Part shown: positions 5,513-47,711 of the stretch, piece by piece
Position numbering within the stretch: the first letter of the stretch is position 1
Layout: each line of letters begins with the position of its first letter
DNA from: an uncultured Prochlorococcus sp.
GTDB taxonomy: Bacteria > Cyanobacteriota > Cyanobacteriia > PCC-6307 > Cyanobiaceae
Direction of reading: 5' to 3'
Length of the DNA stretch: 48,916 nt
NCBI GenBank assembly: GCA_902550485.1
Contig: CACCZQ010000004.1
Coordinates: forward strand, 1 to 48,916
The notes under the pieces: generated by a model
The model's database searches: none
Seen by the model: only the letters and a program-made list of their open reading frames with translations
Told to the model about the DNA's origin: nothing
Program-made: the position numbers and the translations under genes

Positions 5513-6433
5513 TTAAAAATCATTAAAAGATTTTTCTGATCTTTTTAAAGCATTTAGGAATAACCTCTCCCTTTCATCTGAATTATCAAGAAGATAAGAT
5601 ATTTTCTCAATCCAATCATCAATATTATTATCTAATAAAATCCCATCATGATTATCATTAATAAAGTCACAAAATGGCTTTAAATTACTATAAATTCCTA
5701 CAGCTTCAAGTCTAGTAATATCAAAAAACTTAGTTGGAGATCTAAAGTTATTAAAATTGGAGTTAAAAATTGGGTTCAATACAAGGTCCACCTTACCTAT
5801 CGTGGTATCAAAAAAAAAGGTCTCCCAATCCAACGGATATGACATTTTTATTCTTGGAACTGATCTGAAATAATTTCTCCATTTTTTATTTACATAAATT
5901 TCAATAAGACAATCATTTCTTTGTAGCTGTATTTTCTCAAATAGTTTCTTTAACCAAAGCAATTCTTTAGTGTGCGAACTTGTCCCAAGGTATGCAATTT
6001 TATAAAATTTTTTTAATGGAATATTTTGATTATGCTTTAGAGTTAACAAATTAATATTTATATCATTTTTGGGAATTTTTTGCTTTACTTTTTCTGCTAG
6101 TAATTTATTTGTTACCCAAATTTCATTAAGAAAAAAATTAAAGAAATATTTATAACAATAAATATTGATGAAGATTTTTAACTTATAAAGAAAAGGTATT
6201 TCTGAGAAGATATGTAAATCAAGTAAATTATCGTCAAGGAGTAAAATTATTTTTTTTGATTTCCTTTTTAAAAGGATAAGATCAAGAAAAATATTTAATG
6301 GTATATATCTAACTAAAATTATTGTTTTAAACTTATTTAAATATTTTTTATCTAGGTTTCTAGGATTTACAACTTTATAAATCCCCATTTTAAGCCAATA
6401 AAAAACCGTTGGGGTCACTCCATTAGAAATCAC
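5513..6433 (-). CDS. Probable glycosyltransferase, 5' end possibly damaged
   Basis: This 306-aa protein from a GTG at 6431-6433 has no textbook signature. Its C-terminal third looks like a GT-B nucleotide-sugar site: RSPTKFFDITRLEAVGIYSN followed by NHDGILLDNNIDDWIEKI, the pattern of a Glu-containing sugar-nucleotide loop and terminal helix. A hydrophobic segment (KIILLLDDNLLDLHIF) precedes it. The frame stays open upstream to 6523 and reads like protein (GLFLSHIIKFVNFDLLGKPI), yet holds no ATG, GTG or TTG. The only nearby ATG (6501-6503) is one base out of frame. Either a short form starts at GTG or the original start was lost by a one-base change. The substrate is unknown; transfer of a capsule sugar is inferred from position. 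Confidence 0.6.
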   Translation of the reverse strand: MISNGVTPTVFYWLKMGIYKVVNPRNLDKKYLNKFKTIILVRYIPLNIFLDLILLKRKSKKIILLLDDNLLDLHIFSEIPFLYKLKIFINIYCYKYFFNFFLNEIWVTNKLLAEKVKQKIPKNDININLLTLKHNQNIPLKKFYKIAYLGTSSHTKELLWLKKLFEKIQLQRNDCLIEIYVNKKWRNYFRSVPRIKMSYPLDWETFFFDTTIGKVDLVLNPIFNSNFNNFRSPTKFFDITRLEAVGIYSNLKPFCDFINDNHDGILLDNNIDDWIEKISYLLDNSDERERLFLNALKRSEKSFNDF

Positions 6434-9376: not shown

Positions 9377-11357
9377 TTATTTTTTTTGTTAACCAGCGAT
9401 CTTTTAAAATTCCCCAATTTTTAAATACAATTTGCTCCAAGTTTCTTTTCCCACTACTTTGAAGTATCTCTTCAAAAATATTTTCTATTTCAGTGAGACA
9501 ATTAAACTTTACACTAGAGTAAAGAGGATATTCTACCAAGGTTATAAAAGTTAATTCCTCAATTGTCAATTTCTTGGTTCTTCTTTTTGTCCATATATTG
9601 TTATTTAATTTATCTTCAGTTAGCCCCCACCCTGCATAAAAAGGAAACCCATAAGTAGTTACAGATATTCCTCTTATTAAAGCTTCAAAACCTCCTAGGG
9701 AAGTAAATACGGCTATCCTATCAACCTTATTAAAGAGATCATCAAGTGAAGTTTTATAAGCGATAAGATCAGCATTTAAATTAATAAATTCATCTGCAGT
9801 TCCTTTAGCTCTTAGACCTGCTTCAGTATCTGGGTGTGGCTTGTAAATTATATATGAATCTGGGTAATCTTTTCTAACCTGCTCGACTAATGCAAAATTT
9901 GTTTTTGCGATAGTATTATCAGGGACACCATAAATAATAGAATTATCACTTTCCACTTGACCAAGAATACCAATTATCTCTTTATTTTTAACATTTTCCG
10001 AAAATTTTATTTCTTTTCTAAATTTAAGATTATATTTACTAATTTTTAATTTGATTATTAAATCAATAATTCTTCTTGCTCTTATTATTTCATCATGATT
10101 AACATTACTATTTTGAAGTAAATCTTCTAGATCACTTACTTTACTGGCATCATAATGAATGCCTTTTTTATCAAATATAAGGCTTAATGGAGGGTATAGA
10201 TCACCACCCAGACCAACAGATCTGATGAATCCATCTTCTACTGAAATAAAATCATCGACTTGCTTAATATATCCTTCTGTTCTTGTATTTTTACCCCAAA
10301 CAATAATATTTTTCATTTTACTTTTGAATCTTTTCAAAAATTTTACTTTTTTCCCAGTAACAGGATAAACAAAACGATTAATTTGCCTTGCTTTCCAAGG
10401 AGTTAAATTTATAGCCTCTAAATTTTTTGGAAAAAATTTAGAAGTTTTTCTCAAATAATGAATATATTGCATTATTTCTTCAACTTCACATTCTTTTTTT
10501 GTTCTTGGATCTAAACAAATTTGATACTTTACTAAAGAAGAAAATACAAGCTGCTCAAGTGTAATTTTATTATTAACCTGTTTATTATTTATATTATGAT
10601 CAATTGTTAACCCTAAGCCTGAATAAAATGGTTTACCAAAGACATGAACATCCTTACCATAAATTAAAGCTTCAAAACCTACTTGGCTAGTAACTACGCA
10701 TACTGCTGAACTAAACTCTATTAATCTATTTATTTGGCCTATATCCCCCAAAATTATAATTTTTTCTTTTGAATACTTAGATATGTCAATGCAACCTTTT
10801 TTTTTATGGTTAATTACGTCAGGATGTGACTTTATAATAATCTTATGCTCAGGCCAATTATTGACTGCGAATTCAAACATCTGCTTGAATGAATTCTCAT
10901 CAGCATCTCCATAATTTATAGAAAGATCTCCAAAAGTTTGATCTATCAAAAGTATGTAAGGAAATGAGGGAGGTTCTAAAAAAGATGGGAAATTATATTT
11001 GGAAATCGAATATTTTTTCCATAATTCTATTATTTTTTTTGCTCTAGAAATATTTTTTTTACTTAGTTTTTCAATAACATACTTTTTAAAATCGTTATCG
11101 CTATCGCAATCATAGTATATTCCACGGTTATCGTAACAAATACTAAAAGGTATTTTCTTCTTTTTTATCCCAAATGAATGAACAAATCCATCTTCAATAA
11201 AAACTAATTTTTTATTTTTTCTATTATTTCGAAGGAATTCGCCTGATCTTTTCATTCCCCATGAATAGAGAAGTTTATTATCTAATTGAAATTCTTTTAT
11301 GATTGTTTTTGTTCTTGACTTCATTAAAAAAAACTTATAAAAAAAATCTTTAAACAT
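9360..11357 (-). CDS. kpsC: Capsule Kdo-linker synthase, KpsC-like (two glycosyltransferase modules)
   Basis: This 665-aa cytoplasmic-face enzyme is close to the usual KpsC length of about 675. Two related halves are visible. In the first, WGMKRSGEFLRN, FIEDGFVHSFGI, KSHPDV and CVVTSQVGFEALIYGKDVHVFG. In the second, WGKNTRTEGY, SVEDGFIRSVGL, YKPHPDTEAGLR and AVFTSLGGFEALIRGISVTTYG, each ending in a FYAG/FYSGLGLT-type segment. KpsC proteins carry two Kdo transferase modules that alternate beta-2,4 and beta-2,7 links to build the poly-Kdo linker between lipid and capsule. Both modules keep their EDGF and HPD motifs, so both look active. It is the first gene of the leftward operon kpsC-kpsS-acyltransferase and diverges from rfbA. 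Confidence 0.95.
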   Translation of the reverse strand: MFKDFFYKFFLMKSRTKTIIKEFQLDNKLLYSWGMKRSGEFLRNNRKNKKLVFIEDGFVHSFGIKKKKIPFSICYDNRGIYYDCDSDNDFKKYVIEKLSKKNISRAKKIIELWKKYSISKYNFPSFLEPPSFPYILLIDQTFGDLSINYGDADENSFKQMFEFAVNNWPEHKIIIKSHPDVINHKKKGCIDISKYSKEKIIILGDIGQINRLIEFSSAVCVVTSQVGFEALIYGKDVHVFGKPFYSGLGLTIDHNINNKQVNNKITLEQLVFSSLVKYQICLDPRTKKECEVEEIMQYIHYLRKTSKFFPKNLEAINLTPWKARQINRFVYPVTGKKVKFLKRFKSKMKNIIVWGKNTRTEGYIKQVDDFISVEDGFIRSVGLGGDLYPPLSLIFDKKGIHYDASKVSDLEDLLQNSNVNHDEIIRARRIIDLIIKLKISKYNLKFRKEIKFSENVKNKEIIGILGQVESDNSIIYGVPDNTIAKTNFALVEQVRKDYPDSYIIYKPHPDTEAGLRAKGTADEFINLNADLIAYKTSLDDLFNKVDRIAVFTSLGGFEALIRGISVTTYGFPFYAGWGLTEDKLNNNIWTKRRTKKLTIEELTFITLVEYPLYSSVKFNCLTEIENIFEEILQSSGKRNLEQIVFKNWGILKDRWLTKKINDFQR

Positions 11358-41840: not shown

Positions 41841-41876
41841 ATTGACAGTTGATCTAAAATAAGGACAATTAGCTTC
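41841..41876 (+). repeat. Dispersed promoter-like repeat, copy A
   Basis: This block is ATTGACAGTTGATCTAAAAT followed by AAGGACAATTAGCTTCT, ending just before the ATG of the SHOCT-domain gene. It matches copies at 43809, 44831, 46930 (partial) and 47146. TAAAAT is a plausible -10 element, which would start the transcript close to the AAGG. Confidence 0.75.
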
Positions 41877-41879
41877 TAA

Positions 41880-42599
41880 ATGAAACGCTTACTACTCCCA
41901 CTACTAGCAGCCCTCGCTTTACCAACTGCTGTCAATGCTGATAATGCTTATGGTTATGGGATGCAATTATGTCAGATGATGAGAAGTGGTATGGATCCAA
42001 GTGATGCAGAGAAAATAGTTAATGATTCAATTATGAATAGTATTCCTCCTTCCTATTCAAGTAGTGATCCGTATGCACCATGGTCTCCAACTAGAACAAC
42101 TTCGGGAGCAATTGCCTCAGGGATTTCTTCAGGCATTGTAGATGGTTTTGCTGCTGCAATGAGAGCAAGTGCTTTAAAACCAGGAGTAATAAAAACTATG
42201 GAATCTAATTGTCCAGATTTTTATGAATCTGCAAGAAATAGAAGTAATGAAAACAAAATTGTAAAAAAGAAAATTTGTACTTGGGAAAAAGATAAGTTCA
42301 ATAAAGGTAAAAAGAAAAGAAAATGCAGGAAGAAAACTGCAGAAGAAATAGCGTTGGAATTACCTAAAGTTCCGGAAGATAAAACAAAACTAAAATTATT
42401 CTGCAAAACAAACCTTTATAACTCAAACTGTAAAAAGTTTTACGATATAAAACTAAATGCAATTAGAAATCCAAATAATATTCAACAAAATACTTATTCT
42501 GAGGCAGATGAATTGAAAAAATTTGCAGAGTTAAAAGATAAGGGAATAATTAGCGAAGAAGAATTTGAAAAAAAGAAAAATGAAATTTTAGGTCTTTAG
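41880..42599 (+). CDS. Secreted protein with C-terminal SHOCT domain
   Basis: This 239-aa protein starts with the signal peptide MKRLLLPLLAALALPTAVNA, which I recognise as a leader reused by several unrelated Prochlorococcus proteins. The next part (YGYGMQLCQMMRSGMDPSDA) is Met/Cys-rich. A Gly/Ala-rich stretch (SGAIASGISSGIVDGFAAA) and a basic linker (KKKICTWEKDKFNKGKKKRK) follow. The last 35 residues (EADELKKFAELKDKGIISEE and the run to GL) are a SHOCT domain, a short helical hairpin usually found at protein C-termini. It probably acts outside the cytoplasm. Function unknown. Repeat copy A lies directly upstream and a leader fragment directly downstream. Confidence 0.82.
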   Translation: MKRLLLPLLAALALPTAVNADNAYGYGMQLCQMMRSGMDPSDAEKIVNDSIMNSIPPSYSSSDPYAPWSPTRTTSGAIASGISSGIVDGFAAAMRASALKPGVIKTMESNCPDFYESARNRSNENKIVKKKICTWEKDKFNKGKKKRKCRKKTAEEIALELPKVPEDKTKLKLFCKTNLYNSNCKKFYDIKLNAIRNPNNIQQNTYSEADELKKFAELKDKGIISEEEFEKKKNEILGL

Positions 42600-42627
42600 A
42601 TTAAACGCTTATTACTTGCAACGCAAA
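42600..42627 (+). repeat. Leader fragment L2 directly after a stop codon
   Basis: Straight after the TAG of the SHOCT-domain gene the sequence reads ATTAAACGCTTATTACTTGC, a damaged version of the ATGAAACGCTTACTACT that begins that same gene. ATG has become ATT. AACGCTTA (42604) and AACGCAAA (42620) lie 16 bp apart, as in fragment L4. Confidence 0.7.
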
Positions 42628-42683
42628 TAGTTAGTAATTTTTCTAATTTCATACACCAGAGAGAGGTTAACAGCATGAAAAAC

Positions 42684-43691
42684 TTATGGACTAGAATTAA
42701 CATATGTTATTAATATTTTCAACAGATCATTAGGTTGAAATTTTGGATAATGGGCTTTTTCTGGATAAATATTAAAATCTTCTAAAAATAATTGTTCTCT
42801 ATTTTGAAAAAAAAGTTGCCTTACTTTTTCATTACTTAATTTAAAGGTTTCATAAAATTCCCTCGCCTCTTTTTTGGATGGTTGAACCTTCTCTAATGGA
42901 AAATCAAAGGAATTTTCGATTAATTTATTTAATCTTTTTTGGGTTTTATCCAAAGGTACAAGATGTCTATCTGGCTTCATCAAATTGATTTGTCTCATGA
43001 TTTCAATAGCTCTTCCATCAATACTTTCATTCCGTCTAAATCCATCAATTTTTAAGATATTTGATAAATGGCTAAGTTCCGAGGCTGCACAAAAGTCTTT
43101 AATTAAATCCCTTGATTCTGGTACACTATCTGGAAACAAAATAGGTTTAATATTTTTTTTACCAAAAATATCCATCCACAATTTCAAGAAATATTCAAGA
43201 TCAAAGTTATCTGTCGCTACAAGGCATTGTTGTTCAAGATGACCCTTATTTTTAACAATATTTTTATATCTACTTAAAGCTCGTCTATCCTGACGCCTAA
43301 GTACTGGTATTATTGAAACCTGTTCAAAGCGCTTATACATCCATTTAAATATTGATTGGATTTCAGTTTTATTAAGTGCACCTAACCCTTCAGCAGAGAT
43401 AATTACTCTTGTTAGGCCTTGATCTTTAACTTTAGAAATTTTTCTGGCAATTCTTTTTTTAAATAAATTCTTTTTCTCTTCATAATTTTCACTTGTTATT
43501 CCTAAATTCTGAGAAGCTCTAGTATTCTTATATTCACAAGAAAAAGCAAAACGAAGTTCAAAAAAATTAGCTTTACTTAAACGAAGAAAACATATTCCAT
43601 TTTTATATAATTCTTGTTCATTCTCTGTTAAAAAAGCTTGAATAGAGGAGCTGCCTGTTTTGCTTGGGCCTATATGAATAAAGCAATCCAT
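42684..43691 (-). CDS. Sulfotransferase
   Basis: This 335-aa protein begins with CFIHIGPSKTGSSSIQAFL, an intact PAPS 5'-phosphosulfate loop at residues 3-15. Near residue 120 is QVSIIPVLRRQDRRALSRYK, where the Arg and Ser of the 3'-phosphate site are expected. It is the third protein in the window with a complete PAPS loop, but it lies 10 kb from the capsule genes and has no sugar-gene neighbours. A different acceptor is therefore possible. The C-terminal region lacks the PDW motif shared by the sulfotransferases at 15004 and 25883. No signal or TM is seen, so it is cytoplasmic. Confidence 0.86.
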   Translation of the reverse strand: MDCFIHIGPSKTGSSSIQAFLTENEQELYKNGICFLRLSKANFFELRFAFSCEYKNTRASQNLGITSENYEEKKNLFKKRIARKISKVKDQGLTRVIISAEGLGALNKTEIQSIFKWMYKRFEQVSIIPVLRRQDRRALSRYKNIVKNKGHLEQQCLVATDNFDLEYFLKLWMDIFGKKNIKPILFPDSVPESRDLIKDFCAASELSHLSNILKIDGFRRNESIDGRAIEIMRQINLMKPDRHLVPLDKTQKRLNKLIENSFDFPLEKVQPSKKEAREFYETFKLSNEKVRQLFFQNREQLFLEDFNIYPEKAHYPKFQPNDLLKILITYVNSSP

Positions 43692-43782
43692 TATTTAATA
43701 GCTAAATCAGCAATTAATTTTTAATTTTATAATAAACTATCATCTAAAAGTTAATGAGCCGCTAACTAATTGCACCGCTATA

Positions 43783-43831
43783 TTAAATGCGATTGACAGT
43801 TAAATGCGATTGACAGTCGATCTAAAATTGG
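43783..43831 (+). repeat. Dispersed promoter-like repeat, copy B, with tandem duplication
   Basis: TTAAATGCGATTGACAG occurs twice in tandem (43783-43799 and 43800-43816); the second copy continues into TCGATCTAAAATTGG. The element ends 29 bp before the ATG of the TM2-domain gene. A weak AGAG/CTCT hairpin with a T-run lies between. Confidence 0.75.
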
Positions 43832-43859
43832 AGAGATAAACCCTCTTTTTATATTATTT

Positions 43860-44087
43860 ATGTTGAGAAAAAAAGAAAAACAAACTTTAACAAGACTCTT
43901 CCTTTTAGGAGTTGGTGCTCCAATTGGACTTGATCGCTTTTACGAAGGAGATGTAACTGGTGGATTCTTAGCAATTTTGGGTTTTCTTGTCGCTTTGATA
44001 ACTGTAGTAGGTTTGTTGGTATGGATTTTTCCTTTTATTTCTAAAACTTTTCGTTTGTTAAGAGAATTTGAAGATGCAGAAGATTAA
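43860..44087 (+). CDS. TM2-domain membrane protein
   Basis: This 75-aa protein matches the TM2 domain: LLGVGAPIGLDRFYEGDVTGG, where G-x-x-G-x-D-RFY is the hallmark, followed by a second membrane helix (about 40-62, LVALITVVGLLVWIF) and an acidic tail. The first hydrophobic segment lies about 12-28. It is an inner-membrane protein of unknown function. Repeat copy B precedes it, and a leader fragment begins at the base after its stop. Confidence 0.88.
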   Translation: MLRKKEKQTLTRLFLLGVGAPIGLDRFYEGDVTGGFLAILGFLVALITVVGLLVWIFPFISKTFRLLREFEDAED

Positions 44088-44123
44088 ATGAAACGCTTAC
44101 TATTTGCGCCCCAGGTAAATTAA
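44088..44123 (+). repeat. Leader fragment L3 directly after a stop codon
   Basis: ATGAAACGCTTACTATTTGC starts at the base after the TM2 gene's TAA and runs as an 11-codon frame (MKRLLFAPQVN) to a stop. It is the start of the MKRLLL signal-peptide sequence without a gene behind it. Confidence 0.72.
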
Positions 44124-44175
44124 GGCTTGGTTATCCTGAATAAATAACTTCTGAAGAAATACTTTTTTTTAATTA

Positions 44176-44493
44176 ATGTTGCGACTTCTTCCGTTACCGA
44201 TTTTTATTTGCATTTATCTATTCTCCTGGTGGAGATGTAAAAAAAATATTATCGTTAGTGATAAGCAACTAAAACCTTGCATTGATTGGGCATATATTAA
44301 AAATTTACCTCTCCCGGCAAAACCTTCATTTGTCGAGTTTTATATTGTTTATGTCTCTTGTTTTTTTAAATTTCCCTTTGGGATAATTGTTCAACAACTA
44401 CCTTTTGCAAAGAAAGTAAGATACTACGAAAGAGAAATGAAATTAATATTTGATAAATGGAATCTTGAAAAAATTAATAAAATAATTAACTAA
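44176..44493 (+). CDS. Small membrane-anchored hypothetical protein
   Basis: This 105-aa protein starts with a hydrophobic anchor (LLPLPIFICIYLFSWW) and then KPCIDWAYIKNLPLPAKPSF. A second hydrophobic stretch follows (YIVYVSCFFKFPFGIIV), and the tail is charged and helical (REMKLIFDKWNLEKINKI). I do not recognise the family. Two convergent small genes lie just beyond its stop. Confidence 0.6.
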   Translation: MLRLLPLPIFICIYLFSWWRCKKNIIVSDKQLKPCIDWAYIKNLPLPAKPSFVEFYIVYVSCFFKFPFGIIVQQLPFAKKVRYYEREMKLIFDKWNLEKINKIIN

Positions 44494-44494
44494 T

Positions 44495-44608
44495 TTATTG
44501 ATATGTCTGGAGTAAAGATATATAAATTCCTAATAATACAAATATTGCTACACCTATTCCAATTACTGTAGTGGGTTGATTATTCCAAAAATTAGTTAAT
44601 AATTCCAT
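44495..44608 (-). CDS. 37-aa single-TM small protein
   Basis: This frame from ATG at 44608 encodes a short polar N-terminus (MELLTNFWNNQPTT), one TM helix (VIGIGVAIFVLLGIYISLL) and QTYQ. Size and layout resemble small thylakoid subunits such as those of photosystems or cytochrome b6f, but no known subunit is recognised. It lies 12 bp after a 41-aa gene in the same direction, so the two may be one transcript. Both would need expression evidence. Confidence 0.55.
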   Translation of the reverse strand: MELLTNFWNNQPTTVIGIGVAIFVLLGIYISLLQTYQ

Positions 44609-44620
44609 TAATTGGGAAGT

Positions 44621-44746
44621 TTAAATTTTTTTAGCTCTATTAGCTCTATTCATTACTTTTCTCAAAATATTATTTTTAATTGATAAATCAGAAATACAAT
44701 AAAGAGTTATAAATAAAAATACTTTTACAAAAAATGAGATTTGCAT
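44621..44746 (-). CDS. 41-aa small protein with N-terminal hydrophobic helix
   Basis: ATG at 44746 opens MQISFFVKVFLFITLYCISD followed by a basic tail (NILRKVMNRANRAKKI). One TM and a positively charged end suggest a membrane-associated peptide. The frame is uninterrupted and not a shadow of another gene. Function unknown; coding status moderate because AT-rich DNA often encodes chance hydrophobic frames. Confidence 0.45.
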   Translation of the reverse strand: MQISFFVKVFLFITLYCISDLSIKNNILRKVMNRANRAKKI

Positions 44747-44830
44747 AATAAAATAACTCTACACTCATAAAAGCAAATTTCAATAGAACTGCCAATTTTT
44801 TAGAAAACCTTATAGGAGGTATTTTTAATA

Positions 44831-44874
44831 ATTGACAGTCGATCTAAAATAAGGGGCAATTAGCTCCTTTTTTT
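44831..44874 (+). repeat. Dispersed promoter-like repeat, copy C, with hairpin and T-run
   Basis: ATTGACAGTCGATCTAAAAT is followed by AAGGGGCAATTAGCTCC and seven T. GGGGC (44853-44857) and GCTCC (44863-44867) form a short stem with loop AATTA, directly followed by T's and then the ATG at 44875. This looks like a terminator-type hairpin placed in a 5' leader. Confidence 0.78.
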
Positions 44875-45012
44875 ATGTTTGGGAATAAGGAACTTGAAAT
44901 TGCAGAAAGAAAACTTTCAAAGGCTATTAATATGATGGCTATGCAAATAACAAGAATGGATCCAGCTATGAGAAATTTTTTCTTAACTTCTAAGAAGAAC
45001 AAATATTTTTAA
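44875..45012 (+). CDS. 45-aa small hypothetical protein
   Basis: ATG at 44875 follows the T-run of repeat copy C. The protein (starting MFGNKELEIAERKLSKAINM) is amphipathic and helical, rich in Met, with a basic end (TSKKNKYF). Its last 23 bp overlap the 3' end of the convergent gene at 44990. The placement right after the repeat, as with other genes here, supports coding. Function unknown. Confidence 0.55.
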   Translation: MFGNKELEIAERKLSKAINMMAMQITRMDPAMRNFFLTSKKNKYF

Positions 45013-45874
45013 ATGTTTCTTCTATTCTTAATGATCTTCTTAGGCCATTAATTAAAGTCTTTATTTCATCGTATCTCATGACTTTATTATTCTCGCTGTC
45101 TTTAGAACAAACCTCTCCTTTTGAATAGGCAGCTAGTAGTTCATTTTCTAAAATTAACGATTCATTCTCTAATTTAGTTAGTTTCTTTTCTCTTAAAATA
45201 TCAATTTCGCCACTCGATTTTGTTACGCCTGCTTTTAAGCCAGAAGCCTTTGAGACCAATGAGCGAATTGCAAATGCATTTTGCTCATTGACTGCTTGTA
45301 ACAAAATTTGCTTTTCTCTTCCGTCATCTCCAAGTTCTCTAACTAAAACTCTCCATTGTGGATAGGCTACGTTACCAGACATCATTCCCACAAATGGTGA
45401 TGCAAGAAGTAAAAAAGGAGCAGCAGGTCCACCTGCAATTATCGCACCTGCCGCGAAACCTCCTCCACTCGCTAAAGCTTCAACACCACTAAATTTAACT
45501 TCAGAATAATCCCCCACTGACCATTGAAGTATTGACTCAGAGTCGATATTACTTTTCTCACCATTTTTAGGGATAATTTCAATAAAATCTTTATTCTCAG
45601 AAAATAACTTTACTGGGATGGTTTTCCCTGAAGAAGGATCTAACATTCCTATCTTTTCAAGTGTAAATGGGTATTTAATTTCACCTGTTGTAGTTAATAG
45701 TTCAGGACCTCTTTTCTTTTTCTTTTTTTTAACAACAGTTTTGTCTTTGCATCTATCTTTGTTTTTCCAAACAGGAGAATTGCAATTGATTTCTACAGAA
45801 CTAACTTTTTCTGGAAAATAAAGATTTGAAAAAAATGGTATGAATATAATTGAAAGAAGAATTAAACGATTCAT
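44990..45874 (-). CDS. Secreted or membrane protein of unknown function
   Basis: From the ATG at 45874 this 294-aa protein begins with a signal peptide (MNRLILLSIIFIPFFSNLYF); a longer frame from 45904 adds 10 residues. A Lys-rich stretch (VVKKKKKKRG) and a beta-rich part follow (about 60-140, with PFTLEKIGMLDPSSGKTIPV). Then comes a Gly/Ala hydrophobic segment (GFAAGAIIAGGPAAPFLLLA, about 150-175) that may insert in a membrane, and a charged C-terminus with LTKLENESLILENELLAAYS as a likely coiled coil. The family is not recognised. Confidence 0.68.
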   Translation of the reverse strand: MNRLILLSIIFIPFFSNLYFPEKVSSVEINCNSPVWKNKDRCKDKTVVKKKKKKRGPELLTTTGEIKYPFTLEKIGMLDPSSGKTIPVKLFSENKDFIEIIPKNGEKSNIDSESILQWSVGDYSEVKFSGVEALASGGGFAAGAIIAGGPAAPFLLLASPFVGMMSGNVAYPQWRVLVRELGDDGREKQILLQAVNEQNAFAIRSLVSKASGLKAGVTKSSGEIDILREKKLTKLENESLILENELLAAYSKGEVCSKDSENNKVMRYDEIKTLINGLRRSLRIEETFKNICSS

Positions 45875-45901
45875 TAAAAGACAAATTTCAACTATTCTAA
45901 T

Positions 45902-45940
45902 CAAGCTGTCAATATTTAGCTAATTAAAAAGACAGGCTTG
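45902..45940. other. Imperfect hairpin containing a partial repeat
   Basis: CAAGCTGTC (45902-45910) pairs with GACAGGCTTG (45931-45940) with one bulged base around a 20-base AT-rich loop. Read on the minus strand it contains ATTGACAG, the core of the dispersed repeat, ahead of the gene starting at 45874. It may be an eroded copy of that element. Confidence 0.45.
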
Positions 45941-45970
45941 GAAATCTTTCTTTCACTTGGATTCTAAGAT

Positions 45971-45999
45971 TCGGGACGACAGGATTCTAAACTGCGATC
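45971..45999 (-). repeat. tRNA 3'-end-like remnant (left side of methyltransferase gene)
   Basis: On the minus strand this reads like the T-arm and 3' acceptor strand of a tRNA, with segments ATCGCAG, GAATCCTG and TCGTCCCGA. By memory it resembles a cyanobacterial tRNA-Pro 3' end with a few changes. There is no 5' half, so it is not a working tRNA. It matches the fragment at 46850-46872 in the same orientation. Confidence 0.6.
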
Positions 46000-46089
46000 A
46001 AGTGTTTAATTATGAATGGGATTAAAGATTATTAGGTTTTGAATAGTTTGAGTTATAGAAAGAAAAAGAATAGGAGATATTCAGCATTA

Positions 46090-46662
46090 TTAGCTTAAAA
46101 TTTTTGACACTGATTTGTCATAGTTAGTTAATTTATTCAATATAGATTTTTTTCTTAAATATCCATCTATAGCATATGTATGCATAAAACCATTTTTTAT
46201 AAATTTATAATCAAATGCTTGAAAATCACTTTCATGCCAAATTGATATATGTGCCTCATGTATATGATCATCTACAGTCCCTTGAACATATTCGTTGGGA
46301 TAATGAATAAGAATATACTTTGACCTATAAACTAAAAAATTCAACAAATCTATACCCTCTGACTTTTTCATATGTTCAATACAATCACCAATAATAACTA
46401 GATCATATGTAGAATCTATAGCTTTATCTATTAAATCAATTGCGGGGAAATTTAATATTTCATCATAAATTTCATGGAGATTATATTCTTTAATATATTT
46501 TGCATCTATTTCCAATCCAAATTTCTTAGATTGTGGATGATACTTAGAAATCATTTTCCCATATTTTCCAGCGCCAGCCCCTATGTCTAAGAAAGTATTG
46601 ATTTTTATATTAGATAAAAGTTTTTTAGTGGTTGCATCAGGTAGCCAATGAGATACAGGCAT
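46090..46662 (-). CDS. SAM-dependent methyltransferase, class I
   Basis: This 190-aa protein has motif I TFLDIGAGAGKYGKMI (about 24-39) that binds the SAM methionine part, an acidic end of strand 2 in KFGLEIDAKYIKEY, and STYDLVIIGDCIEHMKK as motif IV. YILIHYPNEY follows at the next strand. The size and the GDCIEH pattern fit small-molecule or sugar methyltransferases. The substrate is unknown. It stands alone, flanked at both sides by tRNA-end-like direct repeats, so it may have arrived as a small inserted unit. Confidence 0.86.
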   Translation of the reverse strand: MPVSHWLPDATTKKLLSNIKINTFLDIGAGAGKYGKMISKYHPQSKKFGLEIDAKYIKEYNLHEIYDEILNFPAIDLIDKAIDSTYDLVIIGDCIEHMKKSEGIDLLNFLVYRSKYILIHYPNEYVQGTVDDHIHEAHISIWHESDFQAFDYKFIKNGFMHTYAIDGYLRKKSILNKLTNYDKSVSKILS

Positions 46663-46849
46663 CTTAAATATAAATTTATTAAATCTATTTTAATACCCTG
46701 TAGGTATTGTCAAACTTTTTGATAAGTTAAAAATTGAATAAAGTAAGCAACTATTGAAAATAGTTCAAGAAATTAGCTACTCCTAGAGCCACCTTTTCTA
46801 ACTTGAGATTGAAAACAAATATATGAAAACTACTGCAATTATTGATGTA

Positions 46850-46872
46850 GGTGACAGGATTCGAACCTGCGA
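46850..46872 (-). repeat. tRNA 3'-end-like remnant (right side of methyltransferase gene)
   Basis: On the minus strand TCGCAGGTTCGAATCCTG followed by TCACC is a perfect T-arm (GCAGG-TTCGAAT-CCTGT region) plus part of an acceptor strand. Upstream of it the sequence does not fold into a D-arm or anticodon arm. It therefore looks like a tRNA 3' end left by site-specific integration. Confidence 0.65.
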
Positions 46873-46929
46873 ACTAGTGCCCTCTGTTAACTAGGTCTGA
46901 GATTTGATAGTTTTTTTAGGAAAGTTAAA

Positions 46930-46960
46930 CTACAATAAGGAGCAATTAGCTACTTTTTTA
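46930..46960 (+). repeat. Dispersed promoter-like repeat, copy D (partial)
   Basis: CTACAATAAGGAGCAATTAG followed by CTACTTTTTTA matches the second half of copy C. GGAGC (46939-46943) and GCTAC (46949-46953) form the same stem with one mismatch, followed by T's. The TTGACAG half is missing. The next gene starts 69 bp downstream. Confidence 0.65.
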
Positions 46961-47028
46961 GATAAATTACCTATCCTTAGTTTTTTATTTAAAGGTTATT
47001 ATTTTCAGCAAATAACACTTTTAAAAAA

Positions 47029-47142
47029 ATGATGAAACTTGCTATCGTTTTCTTGCCAATTGTATTTGCAGTTATATGGATGCTTTTTATTGGGTTAAGA
47101 ATAAATAAAAGAGATGCAAATAAAAAATTAATTAATTATTAA
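47029..47142 (+). CDS. 37-aa single-TM protein, possibly PsbY-like
   Basis: Two adjacent ATGs (47029 and 47032) start a frame with MMKLAIVFLPIVFAVIWMLF, then a basic tail (RINKRDANKKLINY). The V-[FL]-x-P-I-x-x-A-x-x-W core in a single helix recalls cyanobacterial PsbY, a small photosystem II protein, but the usual NIG after the helix reads IGLR here. I take it as a small thylakoid or inner-membrane protein; the PsbY link is tentative. Confidence 0.5.
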   Translation: MMKLAIVFLPIVFAVIWMLFIGLRINKRDANKKLINY

Positions 47143-47145
47143 TTG

Positions 47146-47173
47146 ATTGACAGTCGATCTGAAATAATTCCTT
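47146..47173 (+). repeat. Dispersed promoter-like repeat, copy E
   Basis: ATTGACAGTCGATCTGAAAT followed by AATTCCTT differs from copy C at one base in the first 20. It lies 80 bp upstream of the ATG at 47254 and begins just after the stop of the 37-aa gene. Confidence 0.75.
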
Positions 47174-47253
47174 AAGCAGAAGTATTCATTTCAAGATCCT
47201 TAACACAATTTTAATTAATATATCCTAGAAATAATTTGTGATTTATTAAACAA

Positions 47254-47592
47254 ATGAATACTTATTTTGTGACTGCAACTTTTAAGAATGTTGCTCTCAT
47301 GGGTGCAGCTTACGATCTTTTTTTAAAGGTTGTTGAAGATGGAACTTTGAATGATGAGTTTGAAGGGTTCAAAGTTTTGGGAAGGTATCATGCCTCATAC
47401 TCAAATAATGTTTATATTATTGTCCAAGCTTCAGCAGGAATAAAAATGACAGAACACTTTGCTCCTTGGAAAGTTAAGTTTGATATAGATTTTGATATCA
47501 AGCCAGTTATGACTGACGATGAAAAAGTTTCTGAGCATAAGCTTGTTGGCTCATTAATGGCAGCAGAAAAGAAAATGGGATTCTCAAGTTAA
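47254..47592 (+). CDS. DUF3303-like small protein
   Basis: This 112-aa soluble protein starts MNTYFVTATFKNVALM and has KVLGRYHASYSNNVYIIVQA. The G-R-[WY]-H followed by a strand and then HFAPWKVKFDIDFDIKPVM with HxAPW is the pattern I associate with DUF3303, a ferredoxin-like-fold family common in marine cyanobacteria. The function of the family is unknown to me. Repeat copy E lies upstream and a leader fragment 77 bp downstream. Confidence 0.72.
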   Translation: MNTYFVTATFKNVALMGAAYDLFLKVVEDGTLNDEFEGFKVLGRYHASYSNNVYIIVQASAGIKMTEHFAPWKVKFDIDFDIKPVMTDDEKVSEHKLVGSLMAAEKKMGFSS

Positions 47593-47669
47593 TTATTTTT
47601 TAAAGATTTAGATTATTAATTTAATATTTCTATTTTGAGAAAGATTTCAGGAAAGGCATGTACAAAAGG

Positions 47670-47711
47670 ATGAAACGCTTACTACTCGTAACGCTTAAAA
47701 ATAACTTTTAA
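47670..47711 (+). repeat. Leader fragment L4 with 16-bp-spaced AACGCTTA repeats
   Basis: ATGAAACGCTTACTACTCGT continues AACGCTTAAAA. The first 17 bases equal the start of the gene at 41880. The frame stops after 13 codons (MKRLLLVTLKNNF). AACGCTTA occurs at 47674 and again at 47690. It overlaps the end of the convergent DUF1651-like gene. Confidence 0.72.

Follow-up and report, generated by a model that had tools for sequence, protein, structure and literature searches.

Single-gene cassettes probably exchanged at two short sites in genomic islands of Prochlorococcus

Sequence comparison suggests that the genomic islands of Prochlorococcus contain arrays of mobile cassettes, each with a single gene, and that two short sites serve for their exchange, probably by a site-specific recombinase. 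We would put the probability of this reading at about 0.65. One site is a block, B, whose core is GATTGACAGTCGATC followed by TANNNT, then a terminator-like hairpin and an ATG. The other is a word, L, ATGAAACGCTTACTACT. Both recur between positions 41841 and 47711 of the stretch analysed here (the window, 48,916 nucleotides, contig 4 of an uncultured Prochlorococcus genome that is 52.7% complete). A first-pass annotation had taken B for a promoter block behind which small genes are swapped, and L for a leader left to decay behind the inserted genes. The swapping idea is supported, as whole cassettes are exchanged exactly at the block; the leader part has to be corrected, and the earlier proposal as a whole is partly supported. 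The relatives of this genome are also Prochlorococcus. Loci compared carry names such as L053 and genomes names such as G291.

In the window the B core occurs at 41842-41860 (one mismatch), 43810-43828 (none), 44832-44850 (none) and 47147-47165 (one), against a mean of 0.03 in shuffled sequence. A fifth copy at about 46918-46936, read by eye, is degenerate, with about six mismatches and the same terminator. The block had been said to precede at least five small genes; four copies are clear, and the figure of five holds only if the degenerate one is counted. The L word is found at 41880 (no mismatch), 42600 (two), 44088 (one) and 47670 (none), where shuffled sequence gives a mean of 0.14. Three of these copies lie 0, 0 and 77 bp past the genes ending at 42599, 44087 and 47592, exactly as had been noted. 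Allowing two mismatches, the window's own genome contains 15 B and 11 L copies, all within four islands. Seven of the eight window sites have a counterpart elsewhere with one side in common and the other side different.

Where exchange happens can be read from pairs of sites that share only their upstream or only their downstream neighbour. The neighbours of B form 150 upstream and 137 downstream clusters, which are freely combined: 687 pairs have the same upstream and a different downstream (44 families), 654 the reverse (42 families) and 424 have both the same. Linkage to the upstream side is at baseline from +15, and linkage to the downstream side is at baseline before position 0. Exchange is confined to the 15-bp B core. 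Variants at positions +6 to +12 tend to go with the upstream partner. This places exchange near +12 to +15, and we infer a point near C12-A14. The class of the terminator that follows agrees in 94% of pairs with the same downstream gene, 38% of those with the same upstream gene and 48% of unrelated pairs. L has the same pattern of linkage, with the switch at +13/+14, and no B x L hybrids exist among the sites compared. B and L windows make up 1.2% of the sequence and contain 14% of alignment ends, a 12-fold excess. In a de novo scan, the only 13-mers found in at least seven unrelated contexts on both sides came from B and L together with the terminator or leader that adjoins them. The same mosaic is found in near-closed genomes, which rules out chimeras of single-cell amplification as its source.

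The units exchanged are small. Spacing of B sites on the same strand peaks at 300-400 bp, and cassettes have a median length of 436 bp (about 320-480 bp is typical) with one open reading frame (ORF), of 97 amino acids in the median; they stand mostly in one orientation within an array. The cassettes include 126 distinct ORFs, which make up 61 protein families, several of them domains of unknown function (DUF3303, DUF3764, DUF3804), others without a Pfam match. Intervals that are 80-100% identical and have unrelated flanks on both sides were found for 146 B-B, 91 B-L, 9 L-B and 7 L-L pairs. A 363-bp cassette on contig 10 of the window's own genome is 100% identical to one in another genome, where it lies between other neighbours. 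Syntenic genomes with and without a given cassette also differ precisely. There are 27 candidate spans for such presence or absence; among the 13 inspected, the best agree to 1-2 bases on either side; in several others, divergence of the empty site makes the case weaker. In the best case, contig 1 of the own genome against L136 (AG-893-L03), flanks of 2443 bp (99.5% identity) and 5577 bp (97.9%) enclose a cassette in one and none in the other, the break falling at the core; the cassette's second B core is short of 2 bp. The order block, gene, leader, on which the first-pass annotation had been built, is the commonest adjacent order (123), next to 119 B-gene-B, 47 L-gene-B, 37 L-gene-L and 33 gene-less L-B composites. 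It is frequent and not obligatory. A lack of excess of this order had been named there as a refutation; the counts do not bear that out.

The consensus of 376 distinct B sites is tGATTGACAGTCGATCTANNNT. It is followed by a GC-rich hairpin, mainly of one of two kinds (AAGGGGCAATTAGCTCC or AGAGGGATAAAACCCTC), and then by a T-run and an ATG. The ORF begins +41 to +46 bp from the start of B in 184 of the 274 sites that have an ORF start. Positions T13, A14 and T18 are nearly invariant and positions 15-17 variable, as in a -10 element. The consensus has no -35 element at normal spacing, TTGACA being too close to TANNNT. Folding of B RNA predicts two hairpins, of which the second ends in a T tail; the z score of the consensus fold is -3.8. 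One pair of loci, L129 at 732 and L169 at 4153, has the same cassette in the same place and differs mainly in the first ~30 bp, where the class of the hairpin changes, as though only the 5' terminator had been swapped.

L (191 sites, consensus TAAATGAAACGCTTACTACTTGC) usually stands right after a stop codon. In 122 of the 191 copies a stop follows within 25 codons, yet the same word is conserved, which does not fit a leader that decays behind an inserted gene. L is instead a second exchange site with the geometry of B, which sometimes serves as the start of a signal peptide. In L-B composites the two sites are 37-39 bp apart. B and L can be aligned in the register T.A.TGA.A..C...CTA, with exchange at the same CTA, a correspondence that is suggestive only.

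Both words recur in the islands of nearly the whole genus. B is present in 264 of 266 genus genomes, with 0-33 copies each, and a reversed-pattern control gave 0 in all except one. With one mismatch allowed it occurs in nearly all genus genomes drawn, and in one of 242 genomes of other genera, as a single copy. L is more widely distributed than B: most of the genus genomes examined have it, as do about 8 of 69 genomes from elsewhere, one of which (G291) has five copies. G291 belongs to another genus and has no B; three exact L sites lie within 1 kb of its contig 1 (440846-441842), a candidate L-only cassette array. In most genomes one B-like copy, TTGACAGTCAATTTAAAAT, occupies a constant core position ahead of one gene and has constant neighbours. 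In L063 (about 1744, minus strand) this copy is a perfect 11-bp palindrome with no hairpin behind it, and the gene starts MSNKFYEWWKNHR. B may have arisen from this copy, which would then be its ancestral promoter.

If exchange at B and L is what moves these genes, it might proceed as follows. The palindrome of the block would belong to the upstream cassette, and TANNNT, hairpin and ATG to the next one. A B cassette would then open with TANNNT, a terminator-like hairpin with its T-run and the ATG of the gene, and would close with the palindrome GATTGACAGTCGATC just past the stop codon, exchange taking place near CTA at the 3' edge of the palindrome. The block had previously been treated as one unit upstream of a gene, which it is not, as the exchange point lies inside it. 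An excised cassette would form a small circle carrying a single site. Once inserted at another B it would be flanked by two copies of the site, and each joint would again consist of palindrome, -10 and hairpin. The inserted gene would thus bring its own transcription start, and the hairpin would stop read-through from its neighbour. L would exchange likewise, only with L, and where it is in frame would supply the signal-peptide start of the incoming gene. The most likely agent would be a site-specific recombinase. One can go further and suggest a genus-wide, integron-independent cassette system in which one recombinase acts on two mutually exclusive sites sharing the CTA exchange point, the joint rebuilds promoter and insulator, and L doubles as a signal-peptide start for export. 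For this fuller scheme we would give somewhat less than even odds.

The most serious alternative is that general or phage-encoded annealing-type recombination uses B and L as short homologies, the two being repeated words of regulatory or coding function. Several observations are in keeping with it. B has promoter-like and terminator-like parts; what unrelated sites share is mostly the core, so that confinement to the core is compatible with homology; precise empty sites would arise by deletion between short direct repeats; and B x L hybrids are lacking, as homology would require. However, exchange partners share no more sequence than random pairs. Their shared length is 17.1 bp (16.0-18.4), where 16.0 bp is expected without dependence on homology length, 19.4 bp with linear and 24.9 bp with quadratic dependence, both curves being assumptions. 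Their agreement in terminator class is 0.38 (0.22-0.55), the corresponding expectations being 0.48, 0.66 and 0.85. This lack of preference for longer shared sequence argues against homologous recombination and favours site-specific exchange, a choice that the first-pass annotation had left open. In addition, RecA generally needs more than the roughly 12-25 bp that such sites have in common, and cassettes that are 100% identical between unrelated flanks require insertion into new places, not deletion alone. We consider the homology explanation unlikely, though it deserves to be kept in mind.

Much less probable is an integron-type system, in which the sites would be reduced attC-like elements on which a tyrosine recombinase acts in their folded, single-stranded form. 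The geometry does recall integrons: each cassette has a single small ORF and carries the site at its 3' terminus, exchange occurs at the 3' edge of the site, and most cassettes of an array point the same way. Tyrosine recombinases, too, are present in every genome. Against this, the GTTRRRY/RYYYAAC boxes are absent from the consensus of the B and L sites, the B palindrome shows no covariation, L does not fold, and no integron integrase (TIGR02249) exceeds the cut-off in any of 41 genomes, island recombinases scoring far below it. We can practically dismiss the idea that B is just a conserved promoter or operator and L a common signal-peptide start, both marking borders of genes that turn over by ordinary means: the fixed core copy and the -10-like conservation of TANNNT agree with it, but linkage switches inside the core and not at variable intergenic places, which rules out a terminator or promoter role alone, alignment ends are in excess at the sites, and non-coding L copies retain the word.

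Which enzyme might act at B and L? A core tyrosine recombinase of 389 amino acids occurs once in every genome tested and is present throughout the 27 genera examined. The tyrosine recombinases of the islands vary widely and are patchily distributed. It had been suggested that a recombinase should track copy number; B copies correlate weakly with the number of island tyrosine recombinases (rho 0.38), and this may reflect only island size. The core and the island tyrosine recombinases are candidates on presence alone. A serine-recombinase-like protein (L223, 1441-2064) is present in 40 of 41 genus genomes and in other genera too. It was set aside as the enzyme, its motif being degenerate (RATH for RVST) and its catalytic serine, by eye, apparently replaced; it is probably an inactive recombinase or a DNA-binding protein. 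Single-strand transposition of the IS200/IS605 type was rejected, as the Y1 transposase PF01797 was found in none of 41 genomes.

Some tyrosine recombinase genes adjoin B. On contig 6 of the own genome (L019, 8124-9386) a gene for a 420-amino-acid tyrosine recombinase, beside ribH, ends 7 bp before B at 9394, and several divergent recombinase genes likewise end shortly before a B site. A dedicated integrase among them was rejected: B follows 10 of 57 distinct tyrosine-recombinase genes, mostly in loci that had been fetched for B.

Several points weigh against exchange by a site-specific recombinase. No recombinase was found that is tied to the sites. Both universal recombinase candidates also occur in genera without B, and B does not require island tyrosine recombinases for its presence, since 18 genomes that have the core one only contain 6-16 B copies. 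The short core has no symmetrical second arm, unlike the double-stranded sites of tyrosine recombinases. Since unrelated sites share little beyond the core, confinement by itself is weak evidence, and for exchanges lying to the right of the core the data set no tighter limit than a share of about 15%. That circles form, that cassettes are excised and that the promoter is active is deduced from sequence.

The individual sites and genes of the window, all on the plus strand unless stated, are as follows. The first B site (41842..41860, TTGACAGTTGATC followed by TAAAAT) leads through a decayed class I terminator directly to an L site; no other locus has the same flanks. That L site (41880..41896, MKRLLLPLLAALALPTAVNA, from the word scan) is the signal-peptide start of a cargo gene of 239 amino acids (41880..42599) with a SHOCT domain (PF09851, E 5.6e-9), which in L053 (minus strand, at 1786) is preceded by a different upstream. 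The 720 bp from 41880 to 42600 form an L-L cassette, present whole in L053 (minus strand, 1786-2506) with 80.9% identity and other flanks. The next L site (42600..42616, two mismatches) comes right after the stop codon TAG; its upstream is shared with five other loci that have a different continuation. A minus-strand ORF at 42684-43691 (start MDCFIHIGPSKTGSSSIQ) looks like a sulfotransferase by its P-loop motif and is embedded in the array, pointing opposite to the cassettes.

Remains of an L-B composite (TGCACCGCTATATTAAATGCGATTGACAG...; 43783..43817) contain a 17-bp tandem duplication when compared with intact composites. The exact B site at 43810..43828 (word scan) has a class II-like terminator and precedes a gene for a small membrane protein of 75 amino acids (43860..44087, from the ORF list), which in L037 and L115 also stands behind other upstreams. 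The 278-bp B-to-L interval 43810-44088 is found whole in L115 (minus strand, 5714-5992) with 94.6% identity and unrelated flanks. It ends at an L site (44088..44104, one mismatch) directly after the stop codon TAA, whose downstream is shared with four other loci that have other upstreams. Another exact B site (44832..44850, word scan) shares its upstream with L083, where the continuation differs. It is followed, up to the next ATG, by a class I terminator-like hairpin with a T-run (44851..44874; seven pairs, four of them GC) and by an ORF of 45 amino acids read from the sequence (44875..45012).

At 46846-46905 the window resembles the 3' part of a tRNA (gacaggattcgaacctgcg), possibly an integration remnant; ARAGORN made no call there and an Rfam search gave nothing above chance. 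The stretch adjoins the degenerate B site, which with its class I terminator spans 46918..46960 (read from the sequence) and has a similar copy in L064. An ORF of 37 amino acids (47029..47142, ending ...KKLINY) is the upstream neighbour of the last B site (47147..47165, one mismatch), and its 3' end is joined via B to different downstreams in 20 other loci. Beyond that site lie a gene of 112 amino acids (47254..47592; DUF3303, PF11746, E 2.8e-11) and, 77 bp further, an exact L site (47670..47686, word scan), whose downstream is common to L087, L111 and L203 and whose upstream is common to L150, the partners differing each time.

To our knowledge, Prochlorococcus is a streamlined organism without known integrons, and its cells are the most abundant photosynthetic bacteria of the ocean. 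A concrete unit (about 440 bp, one gene) with exact sites and mapped joints would make the turnover of single genes in ocean populations something that can be counted and tested. L, in doubling as a signal-peptide start, would offer a direct route to new exported proteins. A 48-bp repeat was reportedly noticed in Prochlorococcus islands by Coleman et al. (2006, Science); it could be the 48-nt L-B composite ATGAAACGCTTACTACTTGCACCGCTATATTAAATACGATTGACAGTC. Our literature search, which did not extend to the PeSL papers (on promoter early stem-loops, see below), Coleman 2006 or Kettler 2007, found no description of these sites as exchange points, of the cassettes or of crossover mapping.

We know other systems in which small genes move between short sequences. 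The pdif modules of Acinetobacter plasmids, which depend on XerCD, are small gene modules between short recombination sites too. Those sites have 28 bp, two recombinase arms and alternating orientation, whereas the cores of B and L have 15-18 bp, no second arm and mostly one orientation. Tycheposons, from the same genus and islands, are said to have been described by Hackl et al. in 2023. They are elements of 4-200 kb, bounded by tRNA genes and carrying tyrosine recombinases (PMC10872708). B and L cassettes, in contrast, have 0.3-1.3 kb with a single small ORF, and their joints are B or L sites instead of tRNA genes. Tycheposons explain the large pieces, not the mosaic of tiny island genes. 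B lies 3-23 bp behind some tycheposon-type recombinase genes, and the cassettes may ride inside tycheposons.

Cassettes of integrons are alike in having one gene, in carrying the site at the 3' end, in being exchanged at the 3' edge of that site and in a mostly constant orientation. They differ in having attC boxes, a conserved fold and IntI, none of which was found here (for IntI, nothing over the cut-off), and in their dependence on a shared Pc, whereas most cassettes here carry their own -10-like element and terminator and do not depend on one.

PeSLs are reportedly the subject of work by Arbiol (2010) and Comeau (2014). They are described from T4-type lytic phages, between non-essential small genes, where they allow modular gene shuffling and are held to act via homologous recombination (PMC4503421). 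Both systems use small repeated pieces at which genes are shuffled; in PeSLs these are a promoter with a stem-loop terminator, in B a promoter-like and a terminator-like part. There are differences too: B stands in bacterial islands, exchange takes place between the upstream palindrome and the -10, and it keeps to the core and shows no dependence on the length of homology, within the limited power of that comparison. Of the PeSL-type features, B shows TANNNT and a hairpin followed by a T-run but lacks a normally spaced -35, and L has neither TANNNT nor hairpin, being without a promoter. Phages as carriers were rejected, as no phage record matched the region; two viral contigs matched B, one of them by chance in a GC-rich gene. 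The closest analogues are integron cassettes in geometry and the PeSLs of T4-type phages in the shuffling of promoters and terminators.

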